DNA of 42,734 nt. It comes from a virus. Where the stretch lies: IMG/VR virus record IMGVR_UViG_3300050122_000200, positions 1 through 42,734 of that record; one strand, 5' to 3'. Numbering within the stretch: the stretch's first letter is position 1; each line of letters starts with the position of its first letter. Shown here in pieces: positions 27,105 through 42,734 of this stretch. The notes under the pieces were generated by a model. It made no database searches. It had not been told where the DNA came from and saw only the letters and a program-made list of their open reading frames with translations. The position numbers and the translations under genes were made by a program.

Positions 27105-27132
27105 ACCTTAGTATAGATAGCCTAGTAGTCAA
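27105..27132 (-). promoter_or_regulatory. Promoter of packaging operon (leaderless type)
   Basis: On the minus strand, TTGACT (27127-27132), a 16-bp spacer and TAAGGT (27105-27110), then 6 nt to ATG 27098. It is a divergent member of the promoter family described at 30655, 31467, 32965, 36142 and 42430. Confidence 0.6.
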
Positions 27133-27138
27133 GGAAAT

Positions 27139-27285
27139 TTAGCGACGAAATCGTTGAATGTTCTGGCGGGATGTTTGCGGATATTCCGGGGTCGGAAGTT
27201 TACGCGAGGCAGACTTCTCCGGCACGGGATTGGTGGGGCGAAGATTAAGGGCGCCGCGGTCAGACTGGGGGTTTTTGGTTTCCAT
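27139..27285 (-). CDS. Small basic Pro-rich protein
   Basis: A 48-residue ORF, ATG 27285 to TAA 27139, starting METKNPQSDRGALNLRPTNP and ending NIQRFRR. It lies between a strong terminator (27299-27331) and the packaging promoter. No Shine-Dalgarno sequence is visible, and transcription would need readthrough of the terminator. Codon-like composition favours coding, but evidence is thin. Function unknown. Confidence 0.45.
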   Translation of the reverse strand: METKNPQSDRGALNLRPTNPVPEKSASRKLPTPEYPQTSRQNIQRFRR

Positions 27286-27298
27286 ATCGATACCGTAA

Positions 27299-27331
27299 CA
27301 AAAAAGCCGTCCCGGTTAAAGGACGGCTTTT
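27299..27331. terminator. Bidirectional Rho-independent terminator
   Basis: AAAAGCCGTCC pairs with GGACGGCTTTT (11 bp) around an 8-nt loop, with T-tracts on both strands. On the minus strand it ends the segment carrying the 3D-domain gene. Confidence 0.9.
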
Positions 27332-27378
27332 ATTGGGACCAGGGGTGGGCCGGCTACGCTCAGACTTCAGCCAGATTT

Positions 27379-27816
27379 TTACGCGGTCGGATTAACGATC
27401 GGGGGAACTGCGGCAGCTTGGACAGCCACAGGCGTGACTGCCGGCGTGCTGACGGGAATCGGAGCCGGGACGGACGTCGGAACCACCGGCACGGGACCGT
27501 TGTTCGGCGTAGATGTCACGGGCGCAGGAGCCGGCGTGACTGGGGTCGCTACCGGCGCGGGGGCCGGCGTAACCGGGGTCACAGGAGCCGCGGCCTTCAG
27601 TGAAGCCACAGTGGACGCCTTGTGTTCGACGAGGCCCTTCAGGAAAGCTTCCGCTTTCGCGATCAGGGAATCGAAATCGTTTTCGACCCGCTGAATAAAC
27701 GTCTCATGGGGTGTAGCAGACGGTGCAGGAGAGGTCTGTGCGGGGGTGAGAGTCGGCTGCGCGCTTGCTGTTGAAGCAAGGCCGGCTGACACAGTAGGAG
27801 AAGGAGTTGTGCTCAT
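27379..27816 (-). CDS. Pro/Ala/Thr-rich low-complexity protein
   Basis: A 145-residue protein. A Thr/Ser/Pro-rich start is followed by one amphipathic helix (ETFIQRVENDFDSLIAKAEA, FLKGLVEHKASTVAS) and then a long Pro/Ala/Val/Thr repeat (PVTPAPAPVATPVTPAPAPV). Its first 113 bp overlap the end of the 3D-domain gene in another frame. A strong terminator follows. It could be a linker or spacer-type virion or lysis accessory; no function is claimed. Confidence 0.65.
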   Translation of the reverse strand: MSTTPSPTVSAGLASTASAQPTLTPAQTSPAPSATPHETFIQRVENDFDSLIAKAEAFLKGLVEHKASTVASLKAAAPVTPVTPAPAPVATPVTPAPAPVTSTPNNGPVPVVPTSVPAPIPVSTPAVTPVAVQAAAVPPIVNPTA

Positions 27817-28180
27817 AAGCTTTTGACCCTACAGCCAGGGGTGCGTGCTGGTCAAGAACTTCTACATCACAAAAAACGGTTCCAAAACGACGTACAGAGG
27901 CTAAATTAGGGCGAAAAACGTCGATATGGCGGCTTCCTTTCACCGCGGATCCGCGGTCGGTTGCGACCAAAATAGTGCCGTCTGGAAGCATAAAACGGGT
28001 TCCCAGAGGGTAAATTCGAGTGTCGACAGCGCATTGTCCTCGTTTTAGACGAGTTCCCTGACAATTAAAGTCGTTTCCGTCCTCCTGGGCGGCATAGGAG
28101 GTCAGCCGCATGTGGACTGTCTTGGCAGAAACAGGGGGAAAGAGGCCGGCGAGAAGTAGAACGAGGATAAGAATTCTCAT
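27704..28180 (-). CDS. Secreted 3D-domain protein (probable cell-wall lytic enzyme)
   Basis: A 158-residue protein. A signal peptide (MRILILVLLLAGLFPPVSA) leads to a 3D domain with the expected aspartates: CAVDTRIYPLGTRFMLPDG, then VATDRGSAVKGSRHIDVF. 3D domains occur in MltA-type lytic transglycosylases and related wall-active proteins with a double-psi barrel. The C-terminal 45 residues are Cys-rich (FSYCVSRPCF; SCTVCYTP) and may be disulfide-bonded after export. It is the best candidate for the phage wall hydrolase. It overlaps the next gene by 113 bp. Confidence 0.8.
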   Translation of the reverse strand: MRILILVLLLAGLFPPVSAKTVHMRLTSYAAQEDGNDFNCQGTRLKRGQCAVDTRIYPLGTRFMLPDGTILVATDRGSAVKGSRHIDVFRPNLASVRRFGTVFCDVEVLDQHAPLAVGSKAYEHNSFSYCVSRPCFNSKRAADSHPRTDLSCTVCYTP

Positions 28181-28206
28181 CCGGGCAGTTTAGGGCAGCA
28201 GGGAGA

Positions 28207-28752
28207 TCAGATGTCAATCACCGAACTGTCCGACAGGTAGAGCCGGGTCGACTTGGACTTCGGAAGAGGAGGCGGGAGCGCCTTGACTGGCTGAACCAGA
28301 GCCTTCCGGGGAGATGTGGGTAGGGCGACCTTCCCAGGGCCTGTCCATTCCCACCGCAGAAAGTAACACACGGTCGGAACCGGTCGCCCGGGCTCCGTAT
28401 CGTCCATGTACTCCCGGACCGGTAAGCTGTCGGGCTGGAAAATTCTCAGCGACCCTTGGGAACTGGCAATGGCTCCTGATGACACCAGGATGGCTGCCAG
28501 GGATCGCTGGACATGGTGGCGGCACGTTGCGTAGGCATCAGGGCGAAGCTTGGACCATAGGGCCGGATCTGAGCCGATGGAGCATCGTTCCGAAAAAGGA
28601 GTGTACTGGTCGGCGCCGCGATCGGCTTCTGACTTTATGACGCGGAAAGCCGGAACAATGATATCCATCCACGACTGAACCTTCTGGACGAGATCCCGAG
28701 AGACAGGTTCGTAGACATTTTGACCGGGTAGACGCTCTAGCCAGGTGCTCAT
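28207..28752 (-). CDS. Hypothetical protein next to lysis-like genes
   Basis: A 181-residue protein. MSTWLERLPGQNVYEPVSRD and a helix DLVQKVQSWMDIIVPAFRVI are followed by ADAYATCRHHVQRSLAAILV-like segments, then a Pro/Lys-rich tail. It overlaps the upstream gene by 4 bp (ATGA). I recognise no domain. Position between a DUF7352-like gene and the 3D-domain gene suggests an accessory late function. Confidence 0.7.
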   Translation of the reverse strand: MSTWLERLPGQNVYEPVSRDLVQKVQSWMDIIVPAFRVIKSEADRGADQYTPFSERCSIGSDPALWSKLRPDAYATCRHHVQRSLAAILVSSGAIASSQGSLRIFQPDSLPVREYMDDTEPGRPVPTVCYFLRWEWTGPGKVALPTSPRKALVQPVKALPPPLPKSKSTRLYLSDSSVIDI

Positions 28753-29006
28753 GGATAAACCTCGAATACGTGCCAGACAAAACCGTCTTGCTGAACCGTG
28801 GCAACATAATCGAACTTCTTTTCCTCTATTTCCATGCCGGTACCGAAAACACTAAAGAACCGGTTTACATGGAGTTTGGTATCATCGAACAGATACCAAA
28901 TGCAAATATTTCCGGCTTGTATCTGGGCTGTTAGCACTTTGGCTGAAACCGGGATAAATACTGCCTGTCGATCTGTACGAATAATTGATTTGTGGATAAT
29001 TATCAT
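28749..29006 (-). CDS. DUF7352-like small phage protein
   Basis: An 85-residue protein. The pattern VFIPVSAKVLTAQIQAGNIC, IWYLFDD, FFSVFGTGMEI, YVATVQQDGFVWHVFEV matches the small single-domain DUF7352 family of phage and plasmid proteins (Q-x-x-LW... GTG... vWHvFe). The function of the family is unknown. It is coupled to the next gene by an ATGA overlap. Confidence 0.75.
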   Translation of the reverse strand: MIIIHKSIIRTDRQAVFIPVSAKVLTAQIQAGNICIWYLFDDTKLHVNRFFSVFGTGMEIEEKKFDYVATVQQDGFVWHVFEVYP

Positions 29007-29040
29007 AATTTATGGTAAGTATTCCTTGACGACACGTAGT

Positions 29041-29346
29041 TCAGTTAAAAATGATTCGCGCAAATATGATGAGAAAAAGGACTGTAAACAGTCCGCCCAT
29101 TATCCACCTATCCCGTTTCCAATCGCCGTACCACTTCATCGGCCCATTCATGGCGATGACAGCCGACCAACTCCCTACGATGATAGCTAGGCCGATCAAT
29201 GGGTAGGCTGGTGCACATTGATTGCTGTCTTCGTGAAACCAGTAATCGGAACTATCACTCGTCATCTGATGACCCCAAATACCCCACCACACGAATGCTG
29301 CAATAATGAGTATACCATAGACTTTTATCGGAGTTATATTTTTCAT
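29041..29346 (-). CDS. Three-TM membrane protein, holin candidate
   Basis: A 101-residue protein with three hydrophobic segments: VYGILIIAAFVWWGIWG, PLIGLAIIVGSWSAVIAM and IMGGLFTVLFLIIFARIIF. Class I holins are of this size and topology, and the secreted 3D-domain enzyme is about 1 kb away in the same direction. This is inference; other membrane roles such as superinfection exclusion are equally possible. The loop contains DSSDYWFHEDSNQCAPAYP. Confidence 0.7.
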   Translation of the reverse strand: MKNITPIKVYGILIIAAFVWWGIWGHQMTSDSSDYWFHEDSNQCAPAYPLIGLAIIVGSWSAVIAMNGPMKWYGDWKRDRWIMGGLFTVLFLIIFARIIFN

Positions 29347-29374
29347 ACGTGTTTAGCGGGGATACTTACCTAAT

Positions 29375-29593
29375 TTATTCCTGTGGGAAAAGTTTCTGAA
29401 CTGTCGTCTTCCGAGGACGTTCCGCGTTGGCTTTCCCTGTGGTGAATCCCTCCTCGTACGCAGCATTCAGAAGGCCGGCAACAAAGTCGCAGCCATTCAT
29501 GGACCCCTCGTACAGAGAGGCTCCATCCTTGGCCGCGGAGACTTTGAATTTATCCTTCGGGAGGTCCGTCGGGACAACGTAGCAGTACGTCAT
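29375..29593 (-). CDS. Small hypothetical protein
   Basis: A 72-residue protein starting at ATG 29593, chosen because GGAGGGAAGG lies just upstream and the start overlaps the stop of the preceding small gene (ATGA). It begins MTYCYVVPTDLPKDKFKVSA and has a helix DFVAGLLNAAYEEGFTTGKA. A longer upstream reading would cross the neighbouring gene in another frame. Function unknown. Confidence 0.65.
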   Translation of the reverse strand: MTYCYVVPTDLPKDKFKVSAAKDGASLYEGSMNGCDFVAGLLNAAYEEGFTTGKANAERPRKTTVQKLFPQE

Positions 29594-29745
29594 ACGAGCC
29601 TTCCCTCCTGTTTGGCGTCCAGGAGTGCCTGGCGGCAGGCCCAGCGGGCCGGCAGCAGGAGCCGGGGAAAGTTCCGGGAACGAATGGACAACGCGCACTG
29701 GGGCTGCACGGAGGAGCGAAATTTAGGGATGCCGGTGAATTTCAA
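29590..29745 (-). CDS. Very small protein, coupled on both sides
   Basis: A 51-residue ORF starting at TTG 29745 with GGAGG 4 nt upstream. The start overlaps the upstream stop and its own stop overlaps the next ATG. It begins MKFTGIPKFRSSVQPQCALS and ends WACRQALLDAKQEGRLV. The tight coupling and ribosome site are the main evidence. Function unknown. Confidence 0.55.
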   Translation of the reverse strand: MKFTGIPKFRSSVQPQCALSIRSRNFPRLLLPARWACRQALLDAKQEGRLV

Positions 29746-29963
29746 GATACCTCCAAAAATACGTCCAGAGGGCTGGAGTTGTGGTGCCAGGTTCCGAAGT
29801 CGGAGACTTGGATGAGTCCTCCGTCCGAAACGACGACGTTGCGGTTGGTGAAGCCTGCCACGTCAGGAATACGTCCCACCCAGTAGGCGGGCTTCCCTGC
29901 CCGGGTCACCAGGGGATGACCCTCGGCGGCCTTGATGCGGTCAAAAGGCGCTTTCTTTTTCAT
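29742..29963 (-). CDS. Small hypothetical protein
   Basis: A 73-residue protein from ATG 29963 with GGAG 6 nt upstream. It begins MKKKAPFDRIKAAEGHPLVT and contains PAYWVGRIPDVAGFTNRNVV and GGLIQVSDFGTWHHNSSPLD, a small beta-rich fold. A longer reading through the upstream gene is rejected. Overlaps both neighbours by 4 bp. Function unknown. Confidence 0.7.
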   Translation of the reverse strand: MKKKAPFDRIKAAEGHPLVTRAGKPAYWVGRIPDVAGFTNRNVVVSDGGLIQVSDFGTWHHNSSPLDVFLEVS

Positions 29964-30175
29964 ACTTGTCTCCAGGTTCGGGTTGTTTCGTCGAAAATCT
30001 GTCGCTGCCGGCGCACCTTGTGCTCGCGCAGGAGAAACTGCCACAGCTGGTGGCGGAGTCCGAAATGCTTGCGCGCTGCGGCCTTCGCCTGGGCCTCTTC
30101 CCGCTCTATCCACGGGGAGGCCTGTCCGTCCTTCACGAAGGAGAACCTTTCTCGTGGCTGGGAGGAAGTAGGCAC
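29960..30175 (-). CDS. Small basic helical protein
   Basis: A 71-residue protein starting at GTG 30175, with GAGGAGG about 10 nt upstream in the preceding gene's end. It is rich in Arg, Gln and Lys (EREEAQAKAAARKHFGLRHQ; REHKVRRQRQIF), so nucleic-acid binding is conceivable. It overlaps the next gene by 4 bp. No family recognised. Confidence 0.65.
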   Translation of the reverse strand: MPTSSQPRERFSFVKDGQASPWIEREEAQAKAAARKHFGLRHQLWQFLLREHKVRRQRQIFDETTRTWRQV

Positions 30176-30177
30176 GA

Positions 30178-30648
30178 TTATTTTTCCTCCTCGGCACGCG
30201 CCCGGATAAAGGCCAACACAGCGTTGTTGGGTGCATAGCCGTCAAATCTCGGCAACGGGGTCCCAGGACGAGAAGCCAGGAGGATCTGTCGGGCCGCGGA
30301 AGCGGTTCCGAGAGACAACTCGAGATCTTTACCTCCGGGAGCCAAGGTACAAGTCCATCCTGCTATACAGTGGGCAGTGTCACAGGTATGCCAATTCGAC
30401 ATCTCCAATTTGCAACCGGTCCGCGTAATTGCCTCGAGGAGATGGGTATAGGGCTTTTCCCATACACCGATCTTTTTAATTTTATTGATAGCGGCAAGGT
30501 TTTCCGCGCTCAGCCAACCGATTTGGTCTTGGCTCAGCCAACCGATTTGGTAACGGCTCAGCCCACCGATTTGGTCCTTAGTCAGGTAAGTGGGGTCAGT
30601 TCCTTCAATAATTAGCAGTTGCTCGGGAGTAAATGTTTTTGTAGACAT
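30178..30648 (-). CDS. Hypothetical protein with 8-residue repeats and WHTC-H-C motif
   Basis: A 156-residue protein. Residues 20-47 contain an 8-residue repeat (LTKDQIGG, LSRYQIGW, LSQDQIGW, then LSAENLAA) encoded by near-identical 24-bp units. Then comes SNWHTCDTAHCIAGWTCTLA, a Cys/His motif common in phage proteins that often follow pentapeptide or leucine-type repeats. Its ATG is exactly 6 nt after the -10 of the promoter at 30655-30683, with no Shine-Dalgarno sequence, so a leaderless mRNA is predicted. Function unknown. Confidence 0.8.
   Translation of the reverse strand: MSTKTFTPEQLLIIEGTDPTYLTKDQIGGLSRYQIGWLSQDQIGWLSAENLAAINKIKKIGVWEKPYTHLLEAITRTGCKLEMSNWHTCDTAHCIAGWTCTLAPGGKDLELSLGTASAARQILLASRPGTPLPRFDGYAPNNAVLAFIRARAEEEK
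30508..30600 (-). repeat. Tandem 24-bp coding repeats
   Basis: Units starting at 30508, 30532 and 30556 share GCTCAGCC[A/C]ACCGATTTGG, with a more diverged fourth unit. They encode the QIGWLS repeats of the enclosing gene and could expand or contract by slippage. Confidence 0.8.
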
Positions 30649-30654
30649 GCAAGG

Positions 30655-30683
30655 AGACTACTACACTAACTATGCTAAGTCAA
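30655..30683 (-). promoter_or_regulatory. Strong sigma-70-like promoter, leaderless type
   Basis: On the minus strand, TTGACT (30678-30683), a 17-bp spacer with the TAGCATAGTTAGTGTAG pattern, TAGTCT (30655-30660), then 6 nt to ATG 30648. With standard geometry the transcript begins at the A of the ATG. Confidence 0.75.
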
Positions 30684-30745
30684 GAATTATTTTCAGAGGA
30701 GAAACGAAAATAATCAGGTAAAAGTCCGTGGAGACTTCTGTTTAA

Positions 30746-30770
30746 AGAGCAGGCAAGAACCCCCTGCTCT
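30746..30770 (-). terminator. Probable terminator of the tRNA transcript
   Basis: AGAGCAGG pairs with CCTGCTCT (8 bp, 9-nt loop) and is followed on the minus strand by TT and an A-rich stretch. It lies downstream of the tRNA-like cluster and upstream of the next promoter. Confidence 0.55.
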
Positions 30771-30836
30771 CCCTGGTCGGGCCGGGCTACTAACCCCAGT
30801 TTAAGCGGCACTAGCCGTATGCGCCCCAAACTCGGC

Positions 30837-30911
30837 GGGCGAGGACAGGGCTTGAACCTGCATCTCCGAGGTCTTGGTTACCCGGCGACTTAATTTTTCG
30901 TCCACACGCCC
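30837..30911 (-). tRNA. tRNA-like element A, aberrant anticodon arm (possible pseudo-tRNA)
   Basis: On the minus strand, acceptor GGGCGTG/CTCGCCC (one mismatch) and a T arm GCAGG-TTCAAGC-CCTGT are clear. The D arm is short (GAC/GTC around an A-rich loop). The anticodon stem CCGGG/CTCGG would enclose a 10-nt loop instead of 7, with no obvious U33-anticodon frame. It immediately follows the tRNA-Met, 7 bp apart. Either a degenerate tRNA or a tRNA-like RNA. Confidence 0.45.
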
Positions 30912-30918
30912 AAACTGA

Positions 30919-30989
30919 TGCGGGGGCCGGACTCGAACCGACGACCTTTTGCTTATGAGGCAAACGAGCTACCACTGCTCCACCCCGCA
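30919..30989 (-). tRNA. tRNA-Met (anticodon CAT)
   Basis: A complete cloverleaf on the minus strand: acceptor TGCGGGG/CCCCGCA, D arm with GAGC-GCTC, anticodon stem TTTGC/GCAAA around CTCATAA, and T arm with GGTTCGAGTCC. 71 nt long. The 3' CCA is not encoded. It could read ATG, or ATA if the wobble C is modified to lysidine. Confidence 0.9.
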
Positions 30990-31035
30990 ATAAAATTTAG
31001 GCCGAATGCTACCGTTACACTAGGCCCTCCTTTCG

Positions 31036-31104
31036 GAAAACCCCGGGAATCGAACCCAGACCTCGGCTTTGTGCGGTTGCTCTACCGTTGAGCTAGCGGA
31101 TTTC
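31036..31104 (-). tRNA. tRNA-like element C, shortened anticodon arm
   Basis: On the minus strand it has a normal D arm (TAGCTCAACGGTAGAGCA) and T arm (CTGGG-TTCGATT-CCCGG). The acceptor ends GAAATCC/GGTTTTC pair with one mismatch. Only 19 nt separate the D and T stems, about 3-4 too few, and that stretch contains no U33 candidate. It should not decode. A tRNA pseudogene or tRNA-like RNA. Confidence 0.45.
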
Positions 31105-31460
31105 AGGTCCGCCCGGAATCGAACCGGATATCACCACTTCCTTCAGCGCTTACGCGCTCATAAAATCCTACCCGGGTCCGGAGACAGTCCCTATAGGGGA
31201 CATTCGCGAATAAGATTTTAAGAGCGCGCCGCCTAGCGATGTCCCCAACCACAACTTATCGAGGGCGGCGGTCGGCACCGGGCGGCGCACAGATTGAATT
31301 TAGTTCTTCATAGTATCCTTTGTCAATGGTCGCTTATCATTTCGGTGGCAGCCGGATGTAAATTTTAAGGTTGCTCTCTGGCCCGTTTCTGACAGGCACC
31401 CCACAGCGTTACCGGAACCCGGGTCTCATACGCTGTCGCGGCGAGCAGTAGTCCGAACCT
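31105..31460 (-). ncRNA. Highly structured noncoding RNA region
   Basis: No convincing ORF. Self-complementary blocks include a 19-nt pair at 31152-31170/31211-31229 (16 of 19 matched), GTCCC/GGGAC at 31187-31201, GGGGACAT (31196-31203)/ATGTCCCC (31239-31246), GCGCCGCC (31226-31233)/GGCGGCGC (31281-31288), and ACAGCGT (31403-31409)/ACGCTGT (31430-31436). Some pairings exclude each other, so alternative folds are possible. A T-arm-like CCGG-TTCGATT-CCGG occurs at the 31105 end. It is transcribed leftwards from the promoter at 31467. Confidence 0.5.
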
Positions 31461-31466
31461 GAGAGG

Positions 31467-31495
31467 AGCCTATACTAACTAAGCTAGAGTGTCAA
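31467..31495 (-). promoter_or_regulatory. Promoter of the tRNA/noncoding RNA unit
   Basis: On the minus strand, TTGACA (31490-31495), 17-bp spacer containing TAGCTTAGTTAG, and TAGGCT (31467-31472). No gene starts at +1; the transcript enters the structured region and tRNA-like cluster. The -35 overlaps the TGA stop of the gene at 31492-31623. Confidence 0.75.
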
Positions 31496-31623
31496 ATCTT
31501 TTGTTTGGCTTCCAGTCGAAAATTTTCCCACCACTCTGTGCCGGCGTACTCCTGAAAATACGACGCCTCATCCAGCATAACTGAGGCGCCTACTGGAAGA
31601 CGGTATAAAACTCCGGAGATCAT
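31492..31623 (-). CDS. Small hypothetical protein (43 aa)
   Basis: ATG 31623 to TGA 31492. It starts MISGVLYRLPVGASVMLDEA and continues SYFQEYAGTEWWENFRLEAK, a protein-like mix of aromatic and charged residues. It lies 21 bp after the stop of the 150-residue gene, in the same direction. The ribosome site is weak. Function unknown. Confidence 0.55.
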   Translation of the reverse strand: MISGVLYRLPVGASVMLDEASYFQEYAGTEWWENFRLEAKQKI

Positions 31624-31644
31624 ATTTTTCGGCAGGATGTCAGG

Positions 31645-32097
31645 CTAGGCCTGGGCAAGGTTCCAGCGACATTCCAGGCGCATCTTGAACGTCGGCTGAG
31701 TTTCAAATCCGCCATTGTAATGATCGAGACCGCGGTAGGCAAACCGATCGAAGCGAAGATACTCAATTATCAATTTGTGGCCGGGCGGTAACTCGTACCC
31801 GGTGGGTCCATCCACGATCCTAGGAAGCCTGGCCTGGATATATGGGCTGCCGTTCATACCTTGGTCCACATGTCGTTTCTCAGGCCCGTGGACCATCTGC
31901 TGGGCCAGACTGGACACGAGTCGGGGGAACACTAAAGGCGTGCACAATTCAACGGCCTCGTCTTCGGACAGGTAGCCGTATTTTCGGACCGTCGGGTGCA
32001 TGGTTTCAACGAAGATCTGGCAATACTGGTAATCGGTGTCCGGACGATAAACCGCGCGGGTGAGGGCTTCACAAACTTGTTTCTCGTATTTTGTCAT
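31645..32097 (-). CDS. Hypothetical protein with LEC[R/Q]WxL C-terminus
   Basis: A 150-residue protein beginning MTKYEKQVCEALTRAVYRPD. Its C-terminus (LPPGHKLIIEYLRFDRFAYR, then QPTFKMRLECRWNLAQA) matches the end of the plus-strand gene at 36556-37074 (PADYRIVIGVRHYRKG, then LPTYNVELECQWSLEP), so they appear to be paralogues in opposite arms. It follows the tRNA-Arg-like element by 16 bp. No ribosome site is visible. Function unknown. Confidence 0.75.
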   Translation of the reverse strand: MTKYEKQVCEALTRAVYRPDTDYQYCQIFVETMHPTVRKYGYLSEDEAVELCTPLVFPRLVSSLAQQMVHGPEKRHVDQGMNGSPYIQARLPRIVDGPTGYELPPGHKLIIEYLRFDRFAYRGLDHYNGGFETQPTFKMRLECRWNLAQA

Positions 32098-32113
32098 ATA
32101 TTTGAAAAGTTAA

Positions 32114-32202
32114 GATGCCGAGTGGGACTCGAACCCACAATCTCCGGGATAACGCCGCGTTGTACCTTCCCCGGCGCTTTATCCAGTTAAGCGACCGGCA
32201 TC
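32114..32202 (-). tRNA. tRNA-like element E (tRNA-Arg-like body, 21-nt anticodon loop)
   Basis: On the minus strand a perfect 7-bp acceptor GATGCCG/CGGCATC, D arm (CGCTTAACTGGATAAAGCG), anticodon stem CCGGG/CCCGG and T arm GTGGG-TTCGAGT-CCCAC. The body closely resembles bacterial tRNA-Arg. The anticodon loop is 21 nt instead of 7 (32149-32169) and contains its own small hairpin AACG-CGG-CGTT. No intron type known from phages fits this. Possibly a non-decoding tRNA mimic. Confidence 0.6.
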
Positions 32203-32220
32203 AGAGTTGTCCCTCGTCGT

Positions 32221-32452: not shown

Positions 32453-32595
32453 CCCTCGCGTGTTTTTGATGTAGGCTTCTGGTCTCCCCGCCGGTCACCG
32501 CGTTTAGCGCACCTACTTTGCAGACCCATATTCCCGACTTTCAAGGTCCAAAATCCTATACCCGCTAGGGGCAGAGGCCGGGGATTTAAAAGTGG

Positions 32596-32964: not shown

Positions 32965-32993
32965 AGACTATACTAGCTATGCTATAGAGTCAA
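32965..32993 (-). promoter_or_regulatory. Promoter of the 32.8-kb gene and following RNA
   Basis: On the minus strand, TTGACT (32988-32993), 17-bp spacer CTATAGCATAGCTAGTA and TAGTCT (32965-32970). A member of the same family as 30655 and 42430, here with a long leader. Confidence 0.75.
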
Positions 32994-32996
32994 GAT

Positions 32997-33326: not shown

Positions 33327-33336
33327 CTGACCGAAT

Positions 33337-33365
33337 AGCCTACACTAGCTACGCTATATTGCCAG
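33337..33365 (-). promoter_or_regulatory. Promoter-family member with degenerate -35
   Basis: On the minus strand, CTGGCA (33360-33365), 17-bp spacer ATATAGCGTAGCTAGTG and TAGGCT (33337-33342). The spacer core is conserved while the -35 is poor, suggesting the TAG-rich core itself is under selection. Confidence 0.6.
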
Positions 33366-34231: not shown

Positions 34232-34273
34232 GTTATGGCATTTAAAGTCTATTGACGCAATATAGTATTTCCT
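34232..34273. promoter_or_regulatory. Divergent promoter region between terS-like and HTH genes
   Basis: Minus strand: TTGCGT (34255-34260), 17 bp, CATAAC (34232-34237), 6 nt, GTG. Plus strand: TATAGT (34261-34266), 7 nt, ATG 34274, with a weak -35. Only 48 bp separate the two start codons, so the two promoters overlap and probably compete or are controlled by one regulator. Confidence 0.5.
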
Positions 34274-34552
34274 ATGGATTCTGGTTTAGCCTTCATTTTA
34301 TCAAAGGTGAGTGATCTTATAGACATTGTAGGGTCTAGGGCAAAACTGGCTAAAGTCTTGAAAGTCCAGAGGTCTACTATAGATCGCTGGTTCTTAGACC
34401 GACGAATTCCTGATCGAAGATTCCGGGAGCGTATTGATCACTTGCTTTTGGAGCTGGGGGGAATGTCGAGGGATGTACGACGAGGCCGGCGCGCGTGGCG
34501 ACGATTCAAGCCGAACCGGGTCGACGGCTTCATTGATGGCGACGGCATCTAG
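34274..34552 (+). CDS. Cro/XRE-like helix-turn-helix regulator
   Basis: A 92-residue protein. Residues 20-60 (GSRAKLAKVLKVQRSTIDRW, then FLDRRIPDRRFRERIDHLLL) form a Cro/YdaS-type HTH in which the recognition helix is around RSTIDRWF. The C-terminus is Arg-rich and ends acidic. It is the first gene of the rightward arm, divergent from the terS-like gene, the usual place for a small repressor. It might recognise the TAG-rich promoter core; this is only a hypothesis. Confidence 0.75.
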   Translation: MDSGLAFILSKVSDLIDIVGSRAKLAKVLKVQRSTIDRWFLDRRIPDRRFRERIDHLLLELGGMSRDVRRGRRAWRRFKPNRVDGFIDGDGI

Positions 34553-34553
34553 C

Positions 34554-34603
34554 CCGCGTCCCTATACTTTTCTGGGGTCCGCGTCCCTATACTTTTCTGG
34601 GGT
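34554..34603. repeat. Tandem 25-bp direct repeat (two copies)
   Basis: Two identical units beginning CCGCGTCCCTATACTTTTCT (34554-34578 and 34579-34603), followed by the first four bases of a third. It starts 2 bp after the HTH stop codon. It could be an iteron-like or operator repeat. Confidence 0.85.
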
Positions 34604-34662: not shown

Positions 34663-34776
34663 CTTGCGGTAAATTGCGGCCCCCTTAACATGAAGTAATA
34701 CGTACACTTTGATTATATAATAATAAGTAAAGAGTAGATAGTGCGTCATCCTAAGGGGGCCAGAATCTACCGCAAG
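34663..34776. repeat. Long interrupted inverted repeat, possible origin or regulatory RNA
   Basis: CTTGCGGTA (34663-34671) pairs with TACCGCAAG (34768-34776), and GGCCCCCTTA (34678-34687) with TAAGGGGGCC (34752-34761), leaving a symmetrical 6x6 internal loop. The 64-nt apical loop is AT-rich (GATTATATAATAATAAG). There is no gene from 34553 to 34851. Confidence 0.8.
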
Positions 34777-34816: not shown

Positions 34817-34845
34817 TTGACAATTCTTGTATCCGACAATAGATT
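34817..34845 (+). promoter_or_regulatory. Early rightward promoter, leaderless type
   Basis: TTGACA (34817-34822), 17-bp spacer, TAGATT (34840-34845), 6 nt, ATG 34852. The geometry places the transcription start at the A of the ATG. Confidence 0.7.
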
Positions 34846-36132: not shown

Positions 36133-36141
36133 AAATAAATC

Positions 36142-36170
36142 TTGACGTAGCTTAGTTAGCATAGTAGTCT
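36142..36170 (+). promoter_or_regulatory. Rightward promoter of the same family, with leader
   Basis: TTGACG (36142-36147), 17-bp spacer TAGCTTAGTTAGCATAG, TAGTCT (36165-36170). The start codon at 36206 is 35 nt further on and has a ribosome site, so this member makes a led mRNA. Confidence 0.78.
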
Positions 36171-36523: not shown

Positions 36524-36555
36524 TTTTAAACACCAACTGAAAGGAATTGTCCCCT

Positions 36556-37074
36556 ATGAACGCATTATTTATCCCCCGCATAGTTTACACCCCCATCACG
36601 CGACGGCTTGTGTTGGAAGCACTGGCCCGCGCTGTCCCGGTCGCCGAGCACACCCCCGAATCGGCCTGTCAGCGTTTTAATTACTCCGGCCCCACCCTTC
36701 TCGAATACTCCACTGGTATCCGGGTCACGTTTCGTCCCAGCGAGATCCTACGGGATGGGCTCAACTACATCGCCGATCGGCTGGTATCGTGTCTGGTGAA
36801 CGGTCGCAAGGAAGAATTTCCGGCCTATCACCTGTGCCTGGATGGTCAGGTCCGTATAGACCCGGACGACGTGCTATATACCCAGGAGCGGTTGCCCTTG
36901 CTGGACCACCGCGGACGCATCCCCGCTGATTACCGGATCGTCATTGGAGTCCGTCATTATCGCAAGGGAATTGGCTTCGATAAAGCCTCCCAGCTGCCGA
37001 CCTACAACGTCGAGCTGGAATGCCAGTGGAGCCTCGAACCTGATCCCCGCAATACGGAGGTGGCCCGTGGCTAA
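36556..37074 (+). CDS. Hypothetical protein, paralogue of 31645-32097
   Basis: A 172-residue protein from ATG 36556 with AAAGGAATTG upstream. The N-terminus is MNALFIPRIVYTPITRRLVL. The C-terminal half shares IPADYRIVIGVRHYRKG and LPTYNVELECQWSLEP with the minus-strand gene at 31645. It overlaps the next gene by 8 bp. Function unknown. Confidence 0.75.
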   Translation: MNALFIPRIVYTPITRRLVLEALARAVPVAEHTPESACQRFNYSGPTLLEYSTGIRVTFRPSEILRDGLNYIADRLVSCLVNGRKEEFPAYHLCLDGQVRIDPDDVLYTQERLPLLDHRGRIPADYRIVIGVRHYRKGIGFDKASQLPTYNVELECQWSLEPDPRNTEVARG

Positions 37075-37569: not shown

Positions 37570-37790
37570 CCGAGTCGCAAAACCAAGCCGCCCTAACGCT
37601 GTACCGCGCCCTGCGCGCCTGCCGCCGGGCCAAGCTGCGCAGGCTGGTACTGGACGGAGTTTTCTACGTCTGGCCATCGGACGCGAATCCCCAGGCCGAT
37701 ATAGAGATTATGGGGACGCCCGCGGCGCTGGAGAAGCATGGTCAGGCGGTGAAGGGCCACGACATGGAACTGGAAGGAGCAACTTTATGA
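37566..37790 (+). CDS. Small hypothetical protein
   Basis: A 74-residue protein with GGAGG 5 nt before ATG 37566, overlapping the previous stop. It begins MTESQNQAALTLYRALRACR, contains a basic helix (RRAKLRRLVLDGVFYVWPSD) and ends acidic. It overlaps the next gene by 4 bp. Function unknown. Confidence 0.65.
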   Translation: MTESQNQAALTLYRALRACRRAKLRRLVLDGVFYVWPSDANPQADIEIMGTPAALEKHGQAVKGHDMELEGATL

Positions 37791-38140
37791 GCAACGAACT
37801 TGAGTGGCATTTTGAACGAGGGCTATTAGTTAGCCACTCCGCATCGGGATGTGGACTGTTTTCTTACCGCGCCCAGTGGGAGGACACCCCAGAAGGGAAC
37901 CGACTCGCGCACGCATATATAACTAGTCCGCAGGACGCAACTTTTGGCTCATATCCTACGCTAGACGACGCCATGAGAGCCTGCCAATCCCACCACGACG
38001 CCATCTGCGCGGCGATTGAGGAGGCTGCGCCAAAGTGGGTAGATTCAGAGATCTTATCGTGGGAGGGATACGTGTTTAAAATCGTGGCATCTCCTAAAAT
38101 TAACCTTGTTACTGAACCCCCAAAGGAACAATCAAAATGA
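37787..38140 (+). CDS. Hypothetical protein
   Basis: A 117-residue protein from ATG 37787 with GGAAGGAG 7 nt upstream. It contains LEWHFERGLLVSHSASGCGL, YRAQWEDTPEGNRLAHAYIT and a helix LDDAMRACQSHHDAICAAIE. A longer upstream reading overlaps the previous gene and is rejected. Function unknown. Confidence 0.7.
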   Translation: MSNELEWHFERGLLVSHSASGCGLFSYRAQWEDTPEGNRLAHAYITSPQDATFGSYPTLDDAMRACQSHHDAICAAIEEAAPKWVDSEILSWEGYVFKIVASPKINLVTEPPKEQSK

Positions 38141-38259
38141 GCCCCAAAGGCCCCACAATTCCAAAATACGTCATTACAAGAGCCAGTGAAATTAGGAGAA
38201 AACATGGCACTTTATCGACTTATTTTGCGATAAGAGAAAAGAAACGGAAATCAAAATGA
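38137..38259 (+). CDS. Very small basic protein (40 aa)
   Basis: ATG 38137 overlaps the previous stop and TGA 38257-38259 overlaps the next ATG. It begins MSPKGPTIPKYVITRASEIR and ends FAIREKKRKSK. AAAGGAAC lies upstream. The coupling on both sides and the ribosome site support it. Strongly basic, so possibly nucleic-acid binding. Confidence 0.6.
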   Translation: MSPKGPTIPKYVITRASEIRRKHGTLSTYFAIREKKRKSK

Positions 38260-39752
38260 GCAACGAAACACGAGAGAAATGTTCGGAATGCGCAGGCACT
38301 GGAAAAGTTATGTACGGGATCGCGCCTGTATTTCAGTGCACGAATTGTATGGGCACGGGCTTCATGCCTGAACAACCTCTGGAAGCGCAAGCGCCAAGAG
38401 ACAGCCGAAGTGAGCTTGACTATTATCGGCAAGAGGATTGGATTTGGCAGGCAGCCGAATCTATCGTCACGCATGCTGACATTTCGGGAAATACATGGGC
38501 ACAAGCTGTTTGTAGCGTCCGCCGAATTATCGAAGGACTGGCGCCTAAAGACGTTGAAAAAGACGCGCAGCTTTCCGCTTCCCTCGCCCTTGGAACAAAG
38601 CAGGCTGAAACCGAATGCAGAATGGGAGCGAGAATTGTTGAATTACTAAATCTCCGAACTCAATTAGCCGAAGCTTTGAGAGAGGTTGTTGCGGAATTAT
38701 CCACCGCTACTCAGCTTTCTCCCGGTTGCCAGAATCAGGTTGATTCCGCGCTCCTTGCTGATCGGAATCTTGATCTTGATCAATCCAAACATGAGCAACG
38801 GACGAAGCCTTGTACAAATCCTGAGTGCCGAGGCAATTGGTGGGTTAATATCGAGATCAATTACCAAGGGAAGGAACTCGCGTATCTTTACCCAACCAGA
38901 GACTCGGCAGATAAAAACGCTTCAGATAGACGAGTTGCGTGCGTTCATTTTCATTGGGAAAAAGGAGAGGGGATGGCCGCGCCTGATCCCGGTTGCGCCT
39001 TCCTCACGCCTAAAGATCAAGCTAATGCTGAGGCGTTAGACAAGTTGGCCGACATCGCCAAGGAATATCCCGAATTTATTGACCAAGTGGCTAGACCTAA
39101 AACCGTTGCCGAACATGCACGAGGCGAGAGTTTGACGACCCTCGTGCCCACCCCCGGAATTGAGATGCACTTTAAATGCCAAAAGCACGGATTGAAAGCT
39201 ATGCGATGCTGTGAATCGGCAACGCCTATCAATGACGCGCCCACCTCTCCCAAGACGTTATGTGATATATACGCAGAAGCGATTCCCAAACACCCTCACA
39301 AAGTTACTATCGTCTGGGAAGACGGGCTTCAAGCCGTCGCAGACCATGCGGTGAGGGAGGCTTTATGTAGAGAGGGAGGCATCCCTTTAGACGAATTTGC
39401 AGAGGCTGGATGGAGTCATGCCAGATGCCTTGAAGCGTCACTCGCCGCCGCCCAAGCTCGCGCTGAGTCCGCAGAATCCTACATCGAAGGATTATGTGAA
39501 TCGGCGGGTGTTAATTCGTCACAATTCCCCGCATGGGTAATGAGAAAGGTAATTCCTTTTACGGGCGATCCAGAGGCGCTCTCACTTCGTGCTGAGTCTG
39601 CTGAGAGGGACGCGGATAGGTTGGCTGAGGCATTGAAGGACGCCAAAGACTGCATAAGATCTGTGATGGCTAGCGCAGGGGATAAATGGATGACCTGTTG
39701 CGATATTGACAAGGCCATCGCCCTCCACGCCTCGTCGAAAGGAAGCAAGTGA
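38256..39752 (+). CDS. Mosaic protein with DnaJ-type zinc finger
   Basis: A 498-residue protein. Residues 9-36 contain CSECAGTGKV and CTNCMGTGFM, the CxxCxGxG motif of DnaJ-type zinc fingers. A helical middle (about 100-150), a Cys-bearing segment with CTNPECRGNWWVNIEINYQG (about 187) and HFKCQKHGLKAMRCCES, and a C-terminal coiled coil of LAEALKDAKD-type helices follow. It looks assembled from several unrelated pieces, as in other phage accessory proteins. RNA or protein binding is plausible; no enzyme motif seen. Confidence 0.7.
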   Translation: MSNETREKCSECAGTGKVMYGIAPVFQCTNCMGTGFMPEQPLEAQAPRDSRSELDYYRQEDWIWQAAESIVTHADISGNTWAQAVCSVRRIIEGLAPKDVEKDAQLSASLALGTKQAETECRMGARIVELLNLRTQLAEALREVVAELSTATQLSPGCQNQVDSALLADRNLDLDQSKHEQRTKPCTNPECRGNWWVNIEINYQGKELAYLYPTRDSADKNASDRRVACVHFHWEKGEGMAAPDPGCAFLTPKDQANAEALDKLADIAKEYPEFIDQVARPKTVAEHARGESLTTLVPTPGIEMHFKCQKHGLKAMRCCESATPINDAPTSPKTLCDIYAEAIPKHPHKVTIVWEDGLQAVADHAVREALCREGGIPLDEFAEAGWSHARCLEASLAAAQARAESAESYIEGLCESAGVNSSQFPAWVMRKVIPFTGDPEALSLRAESAERDADRLAEALKDAKDCIRSVMASAGDKWMTCCDIDKAIALHASSKGSK

Positions 39753-39949
39753 ACAAATCTACAACCACCAACTCAGACATAGGATTCCCTGGGCTACTAA
39801 CCTGCATCTTTATCACCTTAAAACTATGCCACGTCATCGACTGGTCCTGGTGGTGGGTTTGGAGTCCGATTCTTATCCTCGTGGCTCTTTATCTGGTAAT
39901 CGCTACAGTGTGTCTACTCTTCGGCATCTTGGCAGCTTTACTTAAATAA
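39749..39949 (+). CDS. Small two-TM membrane protein
   Basis: A 66-residue protein starting at GTG 39749 with AAAGGAAGC upstream. It contains IGFPGLLTCIFITLKLCHVI then WSWWWVWSPILILVALYLVI, the pattern of small phage proteins usually annotated as transmembrane Fragile-X-F proteins. Two membrane helices. The cellular role of the family is unknown. Confidence 0.8.
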   Translation: MNKSTTTNSDIGFPGLLTCIFITLKLCHVIDWSWWWVWSPILILVALYLVIATVCLLFGILAALLK

Positions 39950-39953
39950 CTAT

Positions 39954-40394
39954 ATGGGACAATCTGCATCTGGATCACTTGTGTTCGGTATAGATTTAGG
40001 TGACGCCGAAAATCTTCCCGAGGAATTTCTGGCCCGGTTCAATGAGGACGACGGCGTGGATATTAATGTACTTATCGGACTGGAGGCCAATATGTGCCCT
40101 CGTCCCGATCTTCCGTACGATTCACCAGAAGACAAAGCTTGGCGACTCCGTCGCGACGAGAAAAAGAAAACTTACCCTCTCGATTTGGTTATCTATGTCT
40201 CATATGATTACCCTGCGTACGTGCTGGCCGTGAAGGGCACAGAACAGGGCTTTGAGTGGGACTGTGCGGAGCCGATCAAGTTTCCATTACCAGCTGTAAC
40301 TATAGGAGAAAAAACAGCCTTGCAGGATTTCTGCGATAGATATGGTATCAAATACAAGGAACCGGCTTGGTTACTAGTCGCGAGGTATACATGA
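39954..40394 (+). CDS. Hypothetical protein
   Basis: A 146-residue acidic protein beginning MGQSASGSLVFGIDLGDAEN. It contains LPLDLVIYVSYDYPAYVLAV-like strands and ends KYKEPAWLLVARYT. It starts 4 bp after the preceding stop and overlaps the next gene by 4 bp. I do not recognise a family. Confidence 0.75.
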   Translation: MGQSASGSLVFGIDLGDAENLPEEFLARFNEDDGVDINVLIGLEANMCPRPDLPYDSPEDKAWRLRRDEKKKTYPLDLVIYVSYDYPAYVLAVKGTEQGFEWDCAEPIKFPLPAVTIGEKTALQDFCDRYGIKYKEPAWLLVARYT

Positions 40395-40744
40395 ATGAGC
40401 ATTCTACGCCGATACAACCCGGACGCGCTGAACCGCCCGAACCACCGAGAAGCCTCCTCTTTAGGCGTGACCCTGAGAGACATGAGCAGTCAGCCACACC
40501 CGCAGTCCCTTCGAATAATAGTTTGGATTCGACAGTATGCCCAGAACGGGTGGACGTCGTGGGACGACCCTCGGCGCGTACTCCCGGGCAGCGCGCCTTC
40601 GACCACGTTCATCGCCCCTTAGACGGCGTGCTTCGTCAGCCCTACACCGTGGCCCAGGCCCGGATGAAGGTGCGGGAAAATCGCTCCCCGCAGGATAAGG
40701 CCTTGTGGGAGGCTATGGCCCAGGCGGTTCTAAAAACCGATTGA
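40391..40744 (+). CDS. Hypothetical protein, disordered N-terminus
   Basis: A 117-residue protein from ATG 40391 with GAGG 5 nt upstream, overlapping the previous stop. The N-terminal 60 residues are Pro/Arg/Glu-rich and probably disordered. The end (YTVAQARMKVRENRSPQDKA, then LWEAMAQAVLKTD) is helical. Its TGA stop lies inside the -35 TTGACT of the next promoter. Function unknown. Confidence 0.65.
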   Translation: MNEHSTPIQPGRAEPPEPPRSLLFRRDPERHEQSATPAVPSNNSLDSTVCPERVDVVGRPSARTPGQRAFDHVHRPLDGVLRQPYTVAQARMKVRENRSPQDKALWEAMAQAVLKTD

Positions 40745-40769
40745 CTTAGCTTAGCATCCGTAGCATCCT
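40741..40769 (+). promoter_or_regulatory. Rightward promoter, near-leaderless
   Basis: TTGACT (40741-40746), 17-bp spacer beginning TAGCTTAGCATCC, CATCCT (40764-40769), 7 nt, ATG 40777. The -35 overlaps a stop codon. Confidence 0.65.
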
Positions 40770-40776
40770 CGCCGGC

Positions 40777-41154
40777 ATGAGCACTCTCTATCCCCTTAAG
40801 ACCCGCGTCCTTATTCCCGCCATCGTCATCCAGTCGGATCCGGGAAACTCTAAAGCCGCCCCCGACCTCACCGTCCGATTGGAGACCAAGGACCACATGG
40901 GCAGGGACACCGAGTTGTTGCTCCACTCCAGCCAAGTCATCGCCCGCGTGTATCCCCCGGATATGATGGTGCCAGCAAACGAAAAAACCACCTTCACCGT
41001 TTCGGATCCCCTGATTGAGCTTTACGATCCTGCCAAGGATTATCGCCACCAAGCCAACCTCGCCGTCCATTCTCTCGAGCTTCACGAGGCCGAGCTGGAC
41101 CTCCTGCAGATGGAGGCCCAGACTTTGGAACCCAGCCGCCCCGGCGCCTTATAA
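40777..41154 (+). CDS. Hypothetical protein
   Basis: A 125-residue protein beginning MSTLYPLKTRVLIPAIVIQS. A beta-rich first half (DLTVRLETKD; HSSQVIARVYPPDMMVPANE) and a helical end (HSLELHEAELDLLQMEAQTL) are seen. No Shine-Dalgarno sequence; it follows the promoter at 40741 at 7 nt. Function unknown. Confidence 0.75.
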   Translation: MSTLYPLKTRVLIPAIVIQSDPGNSKAAPDLTVRLETKDHMGRDTELLLHSSQVIARVYPPDMMVPANEKTTFTVSDPLIELYDPAKDYRHQANLAVHSLELHEAELDLLQMEAQTLEPSRPGAL

Positions 41155-41162
41155 AAACTCCC

Positions 41163-41660
41163 GTGCTGAACCGTAACCCAGTCAAGATTGGCGACAAAGT
41201 TCTTATCGCCGGCACGGTAGTAGGAGAAGTAAGGGGCGTCCACATTATTGATTTTCCGGGAGTTGGAGACGCAGAAGTTCGCCTTGATTGGATGGCCCAC
41301 GCTGAGAACTGGAAAGCGGCTGAACCTATTCAGCCGACATGGGGCGAAGCAGTAGCCGCAGATATCCAGGACCTGGAAGTCGACCCAACGCCCACGCCTG
41401 CCCCTTTTATTCTCGACGGCACACCCTTCCAAGATGCAGAGCAGGCCGTAAGCGTCACGCTTGGCAGTCACGCCAGCCATCTCCGGTTTATGGGCCTGGA
41501 AGAGGCTACTCTGCTCGCGCACGCCGCTGATCTGGACTTACAAATCAAGTCCGACGCGATCCTGCGACCCCACGCCCGGGAATTCAGCCAGCTCTTACTC
41601 GACCGGGTATCCATGCAGCTGGTCCTCGGAGAAGATCGGAGACTATATGGCCTGGCGTGA
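41163..41660 (+). CDS. Hypothetical protein
   Basis: A 165-residue protein starting at GTG 41163. It begins MLNRNPVKIGDKVLIAGTVV, an SH3-like small barrel pattern (GDKVLIAGTVVGEVRGVHII). A Pro-rich linker and a helical C-terminal half follow (LEEATLLAHAADLDLQIKSD). It overlaps the next gene by 14 bp. Function unknown. Confidence 0.7.
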   Translation: MLNRNPVKIGDKVLIAGTVVGEVRGVHIIDFPGVGDAEVRLDWMAHAENWKAAEPIQPTWGEAVAADIQDLEVDPTPTPAPFILDGTPFQDAEQAVSVTLGSHASHLRFMGLEEATLLAHAADLDLQIKSDAILRPHAREFSQLLLDRVSMQLVLGEDRRLYGLA

Positions 41661-41991
41661 CCTCGACCTCCTCAAGTTCCGTGTGGACAAGATTCGCCTC
41701 AGCGCGATCGCGCCGGAGATGCGAAAATATTCTGGCGTTCCGATCCGCCGAGACGAGATCATAAAACTTCTCGGCGAGCTGGGCTGCAACGTCCCCGACG
41801 GCGAGGACCCGGATATCTTTTTCGTGGTGCGCGCGGACGACTACGAGGAGATAAAGGCCCCGGCGCCGGAAGGTGAAGAACCCATTGCCACCGCCCTTTT
41901 GGGCCGGTCGCCCAGTGTGGCCCTGACAGAGGAAATGGTTCGGCACCGTTTCGAAGTCCAGGTGAAGAACCACAACGAGAAACTGGCATGA
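41647..41991 (+). CDS. Hypothetical protein
   Basis: A 114-residue protein from ATG 41647 with GGAGA 4 nt upstream. MAWRDLDLLKFRVDKIRLSA is followed by RRDEIIKLLGELGCNVPDGE and an acidic loop (IKAPAPEGEEPI). Helical first half, then a C-terminal helix EEMVRHRFEVQVKNHNEKLA. Overlaps the next ORF by 4 bp. Function unknown. Confidence 0.7.
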   Translation: MAWRDLDLLKFRVDKIRLSAIAPEMRKYSGVPIRRDEIIKLLGELGCNVPDGEDPDIFFVVRADDYEEIKAPAPEGEEPIATALLGRSPSVALTEEMVRHRFEVQVKNHNEKLA

Positions 41992-42119
41992 GCGTAGAAC
42001 TTTTAGCAGACTATTGTTTTGTCATCCCATTCGCTTTAGGGCTTGGATGCGCTTGCGGGTTTATAGCTTTCATTTTTCTCTGCGCTTGCGTAGGAATTAC
42101 TTTCAATAAAGACGAATGA
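41988..42119 (+). CDS. Membrane microprotein (43 aa)
   Basis: ATG 41988 overlaps the previous stop and its TGA overlaps the next start. Sequence features: MSVELLADYCFVIPFALGLG and CACGFIAFIFLCACVGITF, one or two closely spaced membrane helices with several Cys residues. Coupling on both sides supports it. Function unknown. Confidence 0.6.
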   Translation: MSVELLADYCFVIPFALGLGCACGFIAFIFLCACVGITFNKDE

Positions 42120-42337
42120 AACCAGAGCCGAAAAAGTTTTACGCTCTCCACTACATGCCGACAGGCGGATATCTCGGCGAGCTAGGCGAGAAGTATCCGG
42201 TCGGGAAAAATTACCACCTCTACGAGCAGTCTATAGCGGAGACACGTCGCAGTAATTGCAACCATCCGGAAGAGTGGGAAGTCATCGTCAGCCCACGGCA
42301 AACGGATTGGCTTAAAGAACAATTTTACCAGCATTGA
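42116..42337 (+). CDS. Small hypothetical protein
   Basis: A 73-residue protein beginning MKPEPKKFYALHYMPTGGYL, with several aromatic residues and a C-terminal RQTDWLKEQFYQH. Starts in an ATGA overlap with the membrane microprotein. Function unknown. Confidence 0.7.
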   Translation: MKPEPKKFYALHYMPTGGYLGELGEKYPVGKNYHLYEQSIAETRRSNCNHPEEWEVIVSPRQTDWLKEQFYQH

Positions 42338-42339
42338 TT

Positions 42340-42420
42340 ATGGATATTATCACCACTGTACTCATCCTTTCTCTAGTCGTCGCGGCGTTCGTTTATGTCG
42401 CTATCGACAAGGGTGAGTGA
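42340..42420 (+). CDS. Membrane microprotein (26 aa)
   Basis: ATG 42340 to TGA 42420, 2 bp after the preceding stop. MDIITTVLILSLVVAAFVYV then AIDKGE, a single membrane helix. Too short for certainty, but the hydrophobic helix and spacing are protein-like. Confidence 0.45.
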   Translation: MDIITTVLILSLVVAAFVYVAIDKGE

Positions 42421-42429
42421 AGATTTTTC

Positions 42430-42458
42430 TTGACCTAGCATAGCTAGCATAGTAGTCT
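42430..42458 (+). promoter_or_regulatory. Rightward promoter, leaderless type
   Basis: TTGACC (42430-42435), 17-bp spacer TAGCATAGCTAGCATAG (a direct repeat of TAGCATAG with 9-bp period), TAGTCT (42453-42458), 6 nt, ATG 42465. Confidence 0.78.
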
Positions 42459-42464
42459 CGACAC

Positions 42465-42734
42465 ATGCCTATTACTTCTCGCCCTCAGGCCGCAGGTAAA
42501 TCCCATAAAACTGTGATCGAGGCTTTGTACTATGCCAAGTCTCGAAGCGTAAATGTTTATTACATCGTTAAGCTGGGACACAGTGCTGGCTATTATCTGG
42601 CGATTGCCTGTCAGGTTCTCTGGGCTAATCAGGAACCGTACGAGGTCGACTATAACCTCCGGTCCGTCCGGCTCAGTAACAAACGGGTTCTGGCCTTCAA
42701 GGAAGCCAACCCTCGGGTTCTGAAAAGTGTAAAA
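42465..42734 (+). CDS. Hypothetical protein, partial at right edge
   Basis: ATG 42465 opens a frame of 90 codons with no stop before the window end. It begins MPITSRPQAAGKSHKTVIEA and contains YYIVKLGHSAGYYLAIACQV and VRLSNKRVLAFKEANPRV. There is no Shine-Dalgarno sequence, and the promoter at 42430 predicts a leaderless mRNA. Function unknown. Confidence 0.7.
   Translation, partial: MPITSRPQAAGKSHKTVIEALYYAKSRSVNVYYIVKLGHSAGYYLAIACQVLWANQEPYEVDYNLRSVRLSNKRVLAFKEANPRVLKSVK

Follow-up and report, generated by a model that had tools for sequence, protein, structure and literature searches.

The IMG/VR virus record IMGVR_UViG_3300050122_000200 was analysed over its whole length of 42,734 bases (hereafter the window), with a G+C content of 54.8%. 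It encodes a tailed phage whose structural and terminase genes are carried on the minus strand, and reading frames continue past both ends of the record. A rightward block, without any gene recognised as structural, extends from about position 34274 to the right end. Two features of the promoters of this phage are described here: (i) the position of the -10 box, which in a number of promoters lies exactly 6 nt ahead of an ATG, as expected for leaderless mRNAs, and (ii) a 17-bp element, TAGCWTAGYTAGYRTAG, located between the -35 and -10 hexamers. The coordinates given for minus-strand sites are low ends; where the first base of TTGAC or of the element is meant instead, this is said.

Promoters and their distance to start codons

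Strict promoters were defined as TTGAC, a spacer of 16-18 bp (counted between the hexamers) and TANNNT, on both strands, and chance was controlled with 200 dinucleotide-preserving shuffles. Twelve such sites are present in the window (shuffled mean 2.16, maximum 8), and the narrower form TTGAC-17-TAGNNT is found six times (shuffled mean 0.18, maximum 2). These promoters are real and far above chance; indeed, -35 and -10 hexamers 16-18 bp apart, the arrangement of sigma70-type promoters, occur in excess of the shuffles.

In 5 of the 12 strict promoters an ATG lies exactly 6 nt past the -10 box (shuffled mean 0.025, maximum 1), namely in those whose TTGAC begins at 34817 and 42430 on the plus strand and at 30683, 27132 and 304 on the minus strand; distances of 8 and 9 nt were each found once. 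When counted with no -35 required, TANNNT lies 6 nt ahead of the 5'-most ATG of eight open reading frames (ORFs) of at least 80 aa, some of which may not be genes, against 0-4 ORFs at each of the other distances from 0 to 19 nt. The leaderless signature, TANNNT with its first T about 12 bp before the start codon, is thus enriched over other distances. In standard promoter geometry, a -10 box followed by 6 nt places +1 on the A of the ATG. Furthermore, where the box at 6 nt is TAGNNT (starts 268, 30648, 34852 and 42465), its TAG forms a stop codon in frame with the ATG, four codons (12 nt) upstream; therefore no earlier in-frame start is available and the ATG is not an internal codon.

A first-pass annotation of this DNA had reported the exact 6-nt spacing at 27105, 30655, 34817 and 42430, which is correct, and had rightly recognised TTGACA-17-TAGATT at 34817 as a related site. 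It had also listed 34232 as having the same geometry ahead of a GTG; the 6 nt are there, but the promoter (TTGCGT-17-CATAAC) is weak. It had missed the sites at 275-304, 28187-28217, 27826-27855 and 15504-15533 and the TATAGT ahead of ATG 34274 (Table 1). Overall, about six to ten genes have a promoter that would place the 5' end of the mRNA on the start codon or only a few bases from it. This geometry is strongly supported by the statistics and recurs in distant relatives (see below), and from it we infer both the positions of the transcription starts and leaderless translation.

The absence of Shine-Dalgarno sequences from the listed genes, pointed out earlier, was confirmed but carries little weight, as starts throughout the phage lack them. 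In a lenient test (at least 4 nt matching TAAGGAGGTGA between -20 and -5), 10 of 36 starts, called by a simple home-made caller and individually open to error, have a match, against 26.5% of random positions. With Shine-Dalgarno sequences scarce phage-wide, their absence is no mark of leaderless genes and is expected whatever the 5' end of the mRNA. Matches in the relatives are mostly at background, and somewhat above it in G009 and G011. In the window, ATG 36206 is preceded by AAAGGA, and the 21-nt leader around it is copied at the next gene (36540-36560), which suggests that leadered genes are present in the same phage.

The 17-bp element of the promoter spacers

In five promoters the hexamers enclose an exact copy of TAGCWTAGYTAGYRTAG, of which 200 shuffles gave none; these copies start at 42436 and 36148 on the plus strand and at 32984, 31486 and 30677 on the minus strand. 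Inexact copies are present at 33356 (minus strand, one mismatch), at 40747 (degenerate) and at 27109 (degenerate, on the other strand from its promoter), and a loose form of the element occurs seven times, against a shuffled mean of 0.005. Every copy found overlaps a promoter spacer, the copy at 27109 being inverted. A short conserved site is thus present above chance at several promoters genome-wide, as in a set of dispersed operators. A family sharing TTGAC, a 17-bp spacer and TAG[TG]CT had been proposed at first pass; it holds at 30655, 31467, 32965, 36142 and 42430 but not at 27105, 33337 and 40741, where the spacer and -10, the -35, and the -10 respectively depart from it (Table 1).

Counted from the first T of TTGAC, the element starts 6 nt further on in the promoters in which this T is at 42430, 36142, 30683 and 40741, and 9 nt further on in those at 32993, 31495 and 33365 (the -35 of the last being CTGGCA), with the hexamers still 17 bp apart. 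Because it slides by 3 bp relative to the hexamers at constant spacing, it looks like an operator rather than a part of the core promoter; the conservation of both element and hexamers in spite of their mutual shift suggests two readers, RNA polymerase and a DNA-binding protein. Taken with one preceding C, the element is partly symmetric (CTA-N3-TAGCTA-N3-TAG), and it can also be read as a 9-bp-spaced direct repeat of TAGCATAG.

The element and the leaderless geometry are separate features that overlap in part, and the near-identical promoters cannot be equated with the leaderless set, as had been done before. Indeed, three or four element promoters have the leaderless geometry, while the remaining ones include two that lead into tRNA-containing stretches, one leadered (36142, 35 nt) and one at 10 nt (33337). 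Conversely, the geometry is found without the element at starts 268 and 34852 and perhaps at 28180, 15496 and 34274, in several gene classes.

Table 1. Promoters, start sites and genes of the window (hexamers are given with the length of the spacer in bp; distances run from the -10 box to the start codon)
Feature	Position	Strand	Remarks
TTGACC-18-TAGAGT	275-304	minus	without element; 6 nt to ATG 268; absent from the first-pass annotation
TTGCCA-18-TAGGAT	15504-15533	minus	7 nt to ATG 15496 (417-aa gene, structural block); ambiguous because it overlaps AGGA
TTGACT-16-TAAGGT	27105-27132	minus	6 nt to ATG 27098; degenerate inverted element 27109-27125 (plus)
TTGACC-18-TAGGGT	27826-27855	minus	9 nt to ATG 27816; leader very short or none
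TTGACA-19-TAAACT	28187-28217	minus	without element; 6 nt to ATG 28180 (L-alanyl-D-glutamate peptidase-like gene); less certain because the spacer is long
TTGACT-17-TAGTCT	30655-30683	minus	element; 6 nt to ATG 30648, leaderless geometry
TTGACA-17-TAGGCT	31467-31495	minus	element shifted 3 bp; tRNA/tRNA-like stretch downstream, no ORF at +6
TTGACT-17-TAGTCT	32965-32993	minus	element shifted 3 bp; start codon not nearby; downstream, ORF 32820-32596 and tRNA-like 32201-32114
CTGGCA-17-TAGGCT	33337-33365	minus	weak -35; element with one mismatch; 10 nt to ATG 33326
-10-like TATAGT	34261-34266	plus	7 nt to ATG 34274 (Cro/YdaS-like regulator gene); poor -35
TTGACA-17-TAGATT	34817-34845	plus	without element; 6 nt to ATG 34852
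TTGACG-17-TAGTCT	36142-36170	plus	element 36148-36164; 35 nt to ATG 36206, leadered
TTGACT-17-CATCCT	40741-40769	plus	degenerate member, partial element; 7 nt to ATG 40777
TTGACC-17-TAGTCT	42430-42458	plus	element 42436-42452; 6 nt to ATG 42465, leaderless geometry
21-nt leader AAAGGAATTGT[A/C]CCCTATGAA	36190-36210	plus	around ATG 36206
tRNA-Met (CAT)	30917-30989	minus	downstream of promoter 31467-31495
Weaker tRNA-like match	31043-31095		
tRNA-like gene	32114-32201	minus	Rfam tRNA, 44.9 bits; not called by ARAGORN
Helix-turn-helix protein ORF, 92 aa	34274-34552	plus	YdaS, P22 Cro and phage repressor families, weak scores
Virion protein	12648-14237	minus	
Major head protein-like gene	18029-19234	minus	
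Portal-like gene	20906-23041	minus	
Terminase large subunit	24521-26116	minus	
dNMP kinase	26098-26661	minus	

The ORF 34274-34552 is the only clear regulator found, and thereby a candidate reader of the element. It matches YdaS (E 4.5e-5), P22 Cro (E 1.1e-3) and a PHROG transcriptional regulator (E about 5e-5), the Pfam matches falling below curated cut-offs. Between this gene and gene 34852, a perfect tandem repeat with a 25-nt unit, CCGCGTCCCTATACTTTTCTGGGGT, is present (34554-34603), followed by a long imperfect inverted repeat with 54-nt arms that are 76% complementary (34663-34776). A segment of weak similarity (24% over 58 aa) links genes 34852 and 35370, neither of which has a family match.

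As for the tRNA stretches, the intact tRNA-Met adjoins an incomplete tRNA-like cluster with good T-arms (31030-31190, minus strand), which also gives a weak match to a Y RNA-like RNA (YrlA), under the curated score. The tRNA-like gene 32114-32201 has an anticodon loop region of about 21 nt instead of 7, and could carry an intron-like insert or be a decayed tRNA. At the left end, a 2726-aa ORF (329-8509, minus strand) has a weak Kinase-PolyVal match only and is a polyvalent-type giant phage protein.

Relatives and interpretation

The nearest IMG/VR terminases are 45-49% identical to that of the window; the nearest named phages share 22-26% terminase identity and give no host. A host search with the terminase in genome contigs returned no relative, nor did a search with the TerS-like protein. 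Among nine relatives, 9 of the 27 strict TTGAC/TANNNT promoters are followed by an ATG at 6-9 nt; positions 10-39 of these sites predict 1.6 (Poisson P about 5e-5), and shuffles give a mean of 0.77 (maximum 2). As to the motif search in related phages suggested at first pass, the placement of start codons close behind the -10 recurs, at 6-9 nt, and the element is absent from the records checked. In these relatives 9 nt is as frequent as 6-7 nt, so that mRNAs of some may carry a leader of two or three bases. Two near-identical promoters (TTGACAAMGTAACCKAASCGGMTTAGGAT) are present in G006, with a conserved spacer of their own, different from that of the window; these promoters, TTGACAACGTAACCGAACCGGCTTAGGAT and TTGACAAAGTAACCTAAGCGGATTAGGAT, are located 9 and 6 nt ahead of an ATG, respectively. 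G011 has TTGACA-17-TAGATT-ATCGCC-ATG, close to TAGATT-ATCGAC-ATG of the window's 34817 site, and the start of the gene that follows it is without evident similarity. A promoter and gene start seemingly shared between the window (2946) and G002 (18630) was dropped: position 2946 falls within the 2726-aa ORF, and the gene in G002 is an unrelated one.

When repeats were sought over the whole genomes of the relatives, GC-rich coding repeats dominated the result; in intergenic DNA alone, other dispersed elements were found. Noted in the relatives were: in G003 (L011 5539-5721), an intergenic array of five copies of a TGAGACNNNGTCTCA-like palindrome within 190 bp; in G006 (L072-L075), dispersed GTTTCACAGTGTCAGACAAGA in several near copies on both strands (e.g. 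19234 plus, 47244 minus), with shorter TCAGACA/TCTGACA pieces directly upstream of its two leaderless-type promoters; and in G007 (L076-L078), which likewise carries a family of intergenic repeats of its own, dispersed GGAAAGTATTTGAC (42422 minus, 49426 minus, 57024 plus), partly in tandem pairs.

The account that we favour, with moderate confidence, combines leaderless sigma70-class promoters throughout the phage with a spacer operator of a phage DNA-binding protein. The host sigma70-class RNA polymerase would use TTGAC/TANNNT promoters with 6 (6-7) nt between the -10 and the AUG, transcription would begin on the A of the AUG at about six to ten genes, and ribosomes would start directly on the resulting leaderless mRNAs. 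This placement would be a phage-wide habit common to distant relatives. TAGCWTAGYTAGYRTAG would most likely be the operator for a phage-encoded protein that switches dispersed promoters together, and the switched subset would take in the promoters heading tRNA-containing stretches and one leadered gene. The regulator would probably be a repressor, because a bound protein would cover the polymerase site, and the Cro/YdaS-like ORF 34274-34552 is the first candidate; both the binding and its sign are proposed from sequence features.

Several points weigh against this account. Start sites may fall 5-9 nt from a -10, and several members of the promoter family are not leaderless. The element is absent from 17 related records (up to 3 mismatches to the TTGAC-containing form), and a pattern scan of 2.9 million viral contigs and a genome collection returned chance-like single matches only, none of them in a recurring promoter setting (the L004 match lies inside a portal-like gene); the operator reading is therefore without comparative support. 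Furthermore, no binding protein is tied to TAGCWTAGYTAGYRTAG, the family matches of the candidate regulator are weak, and its own promoter has no copy of the element. A broader proposal, for which we see a rather small chance, is that the genes of the whole lineage are broadly set up for leaderless translation in a host with low Shine-Dalgarno use, that each phage has its own spacer operator and that a single regulator gates leaderless mRNAs and tRNA units alike.

It is also conceivable, though unlikely, that the promoters are real and the transcripts do not begin at the AUG: start choice or upstream promoters would give short-leadered or longer mRNAs, and the 6 nt would reflect compact packing. 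Distances of 7, 9 and 10 nt (starts 40777, 27816 and 33326), the weight of 9 nt in the relatives and the many operon-internal genes apparently translated without a Shine-Dalgarno sequence anyway are in line with this; however, the sharp peak at exactly 6 nt in the strict promoters is unexpected from packing alone. A similarly low probability is given to the conserved spacer being a trace of promoter cassettes copied around the genome and read by no protein. An A-rich upstream stretch, GAAAATAAATC, is indeed common to the promoters with TTGAC at 36142 and 32993, and nearly present in that at 30683, and short copied segments such as the 21-nt leader (36190/36540) occur nearby. Conservation, however, reaches no further than about 12 bp ahead of TTGAC and 2 bp beyond the -10, and these differing flanks around a 17-mer that is kept argue against simple recent duplication, as do the slid and once inverted positions of the element relative to the hexamers.

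It is improbable that a phage-specific RNA polymerase or an alternative sigma factor, instead of host sigma70, reads the promoters marked by the element: the unbroken conservation, running from about 12 bp before TTGAC through the -10, resembles promoters of a dedicated polymerase, but sites without the element (34817, 275-304, 27826) likewise have TTGAC/TAGNNT at 17-18 bp, and no polymerase or sigma gene was found among the ORFs scanned, a part of those in a record that may be incomplete. Least probable is the early-gene programme of leaderless translation put forward at first pass: starts 34852 and 42465 do lie in the rightward block, but the others belong to the gene at 27098, which precedes the dNMP kinase and terminase as the first gene, to one that is peptidase-like (28180), to one of the structural block (15496), to one at the far left end (268) and to the regulator (34274).

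Comparison with known systems

In phage lambda, cI is translated from a transcript that starts at its AUG. The Cro/YdaS-like gene 34274 of the window likewise has a -10-like box 7 nt away but, unlike the single classic case of lambda, about six to ten candidate genes are present here. Leaderless initiation in lambda is also mentioned in a study of bacterial genes (PMC3160421), where leaderless genes have as their signature a TANNNT some 12 bp before the start codon (Zheng 2011, PMC3160421; PMC12340547); these are commonest in Actinobacteria and Deinococcus-Thermus, and are also found in Acidobacteria and others (PMC3160421; PMC12340547). As in those genes, the 6 nt from box to ATG place the first T exactly 12 bp upstream and the middle of the box is variable (PMC3160421); in contrast to them, the strongest cases here add TTGAC as a -35, and the genes belong to a virus (PMC3160421, PMC12340547).

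The spacer element recalls the C1 operators of phage P1, 22 asymmetric 17-bp sites, some of them beside the promoters that they control (PMC8546580), in that one 17-bp site is dispersed over a phage genome. It differs from them in sequence and in that all copies lie inside a -35/-10 spacer, and the cognate repressor is a candidate only. The operators/stoperators of mycobacteriophage L5 type are 13-mers, many of which are located away from promoters (PMC9283540). The element resembles them as a short repeat in intergenic gaps, mostly oriented with transcription (PMC9283540), but it does not behave as the L5 stoperators do, since each copy overlaps a promoter and one of them is inverted.

No phage combining leaderless genes with a spacer element was described in the literature searched, coverage of which was incomplete. 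A phage with roughly ten leaderless candidates would offer a compact natural test of leaderless initiation, so far mapped in bacteria; little Shine-Dalgarno use and TAGNNT -10 boxes give a sequence-only clue to the host, and the spacer element delimits a concrete regulon and a testable candidate operator. In summary, both features are already known in kind, and what is new is the sequence of the element inside the spacer and the many leaderless candidates.

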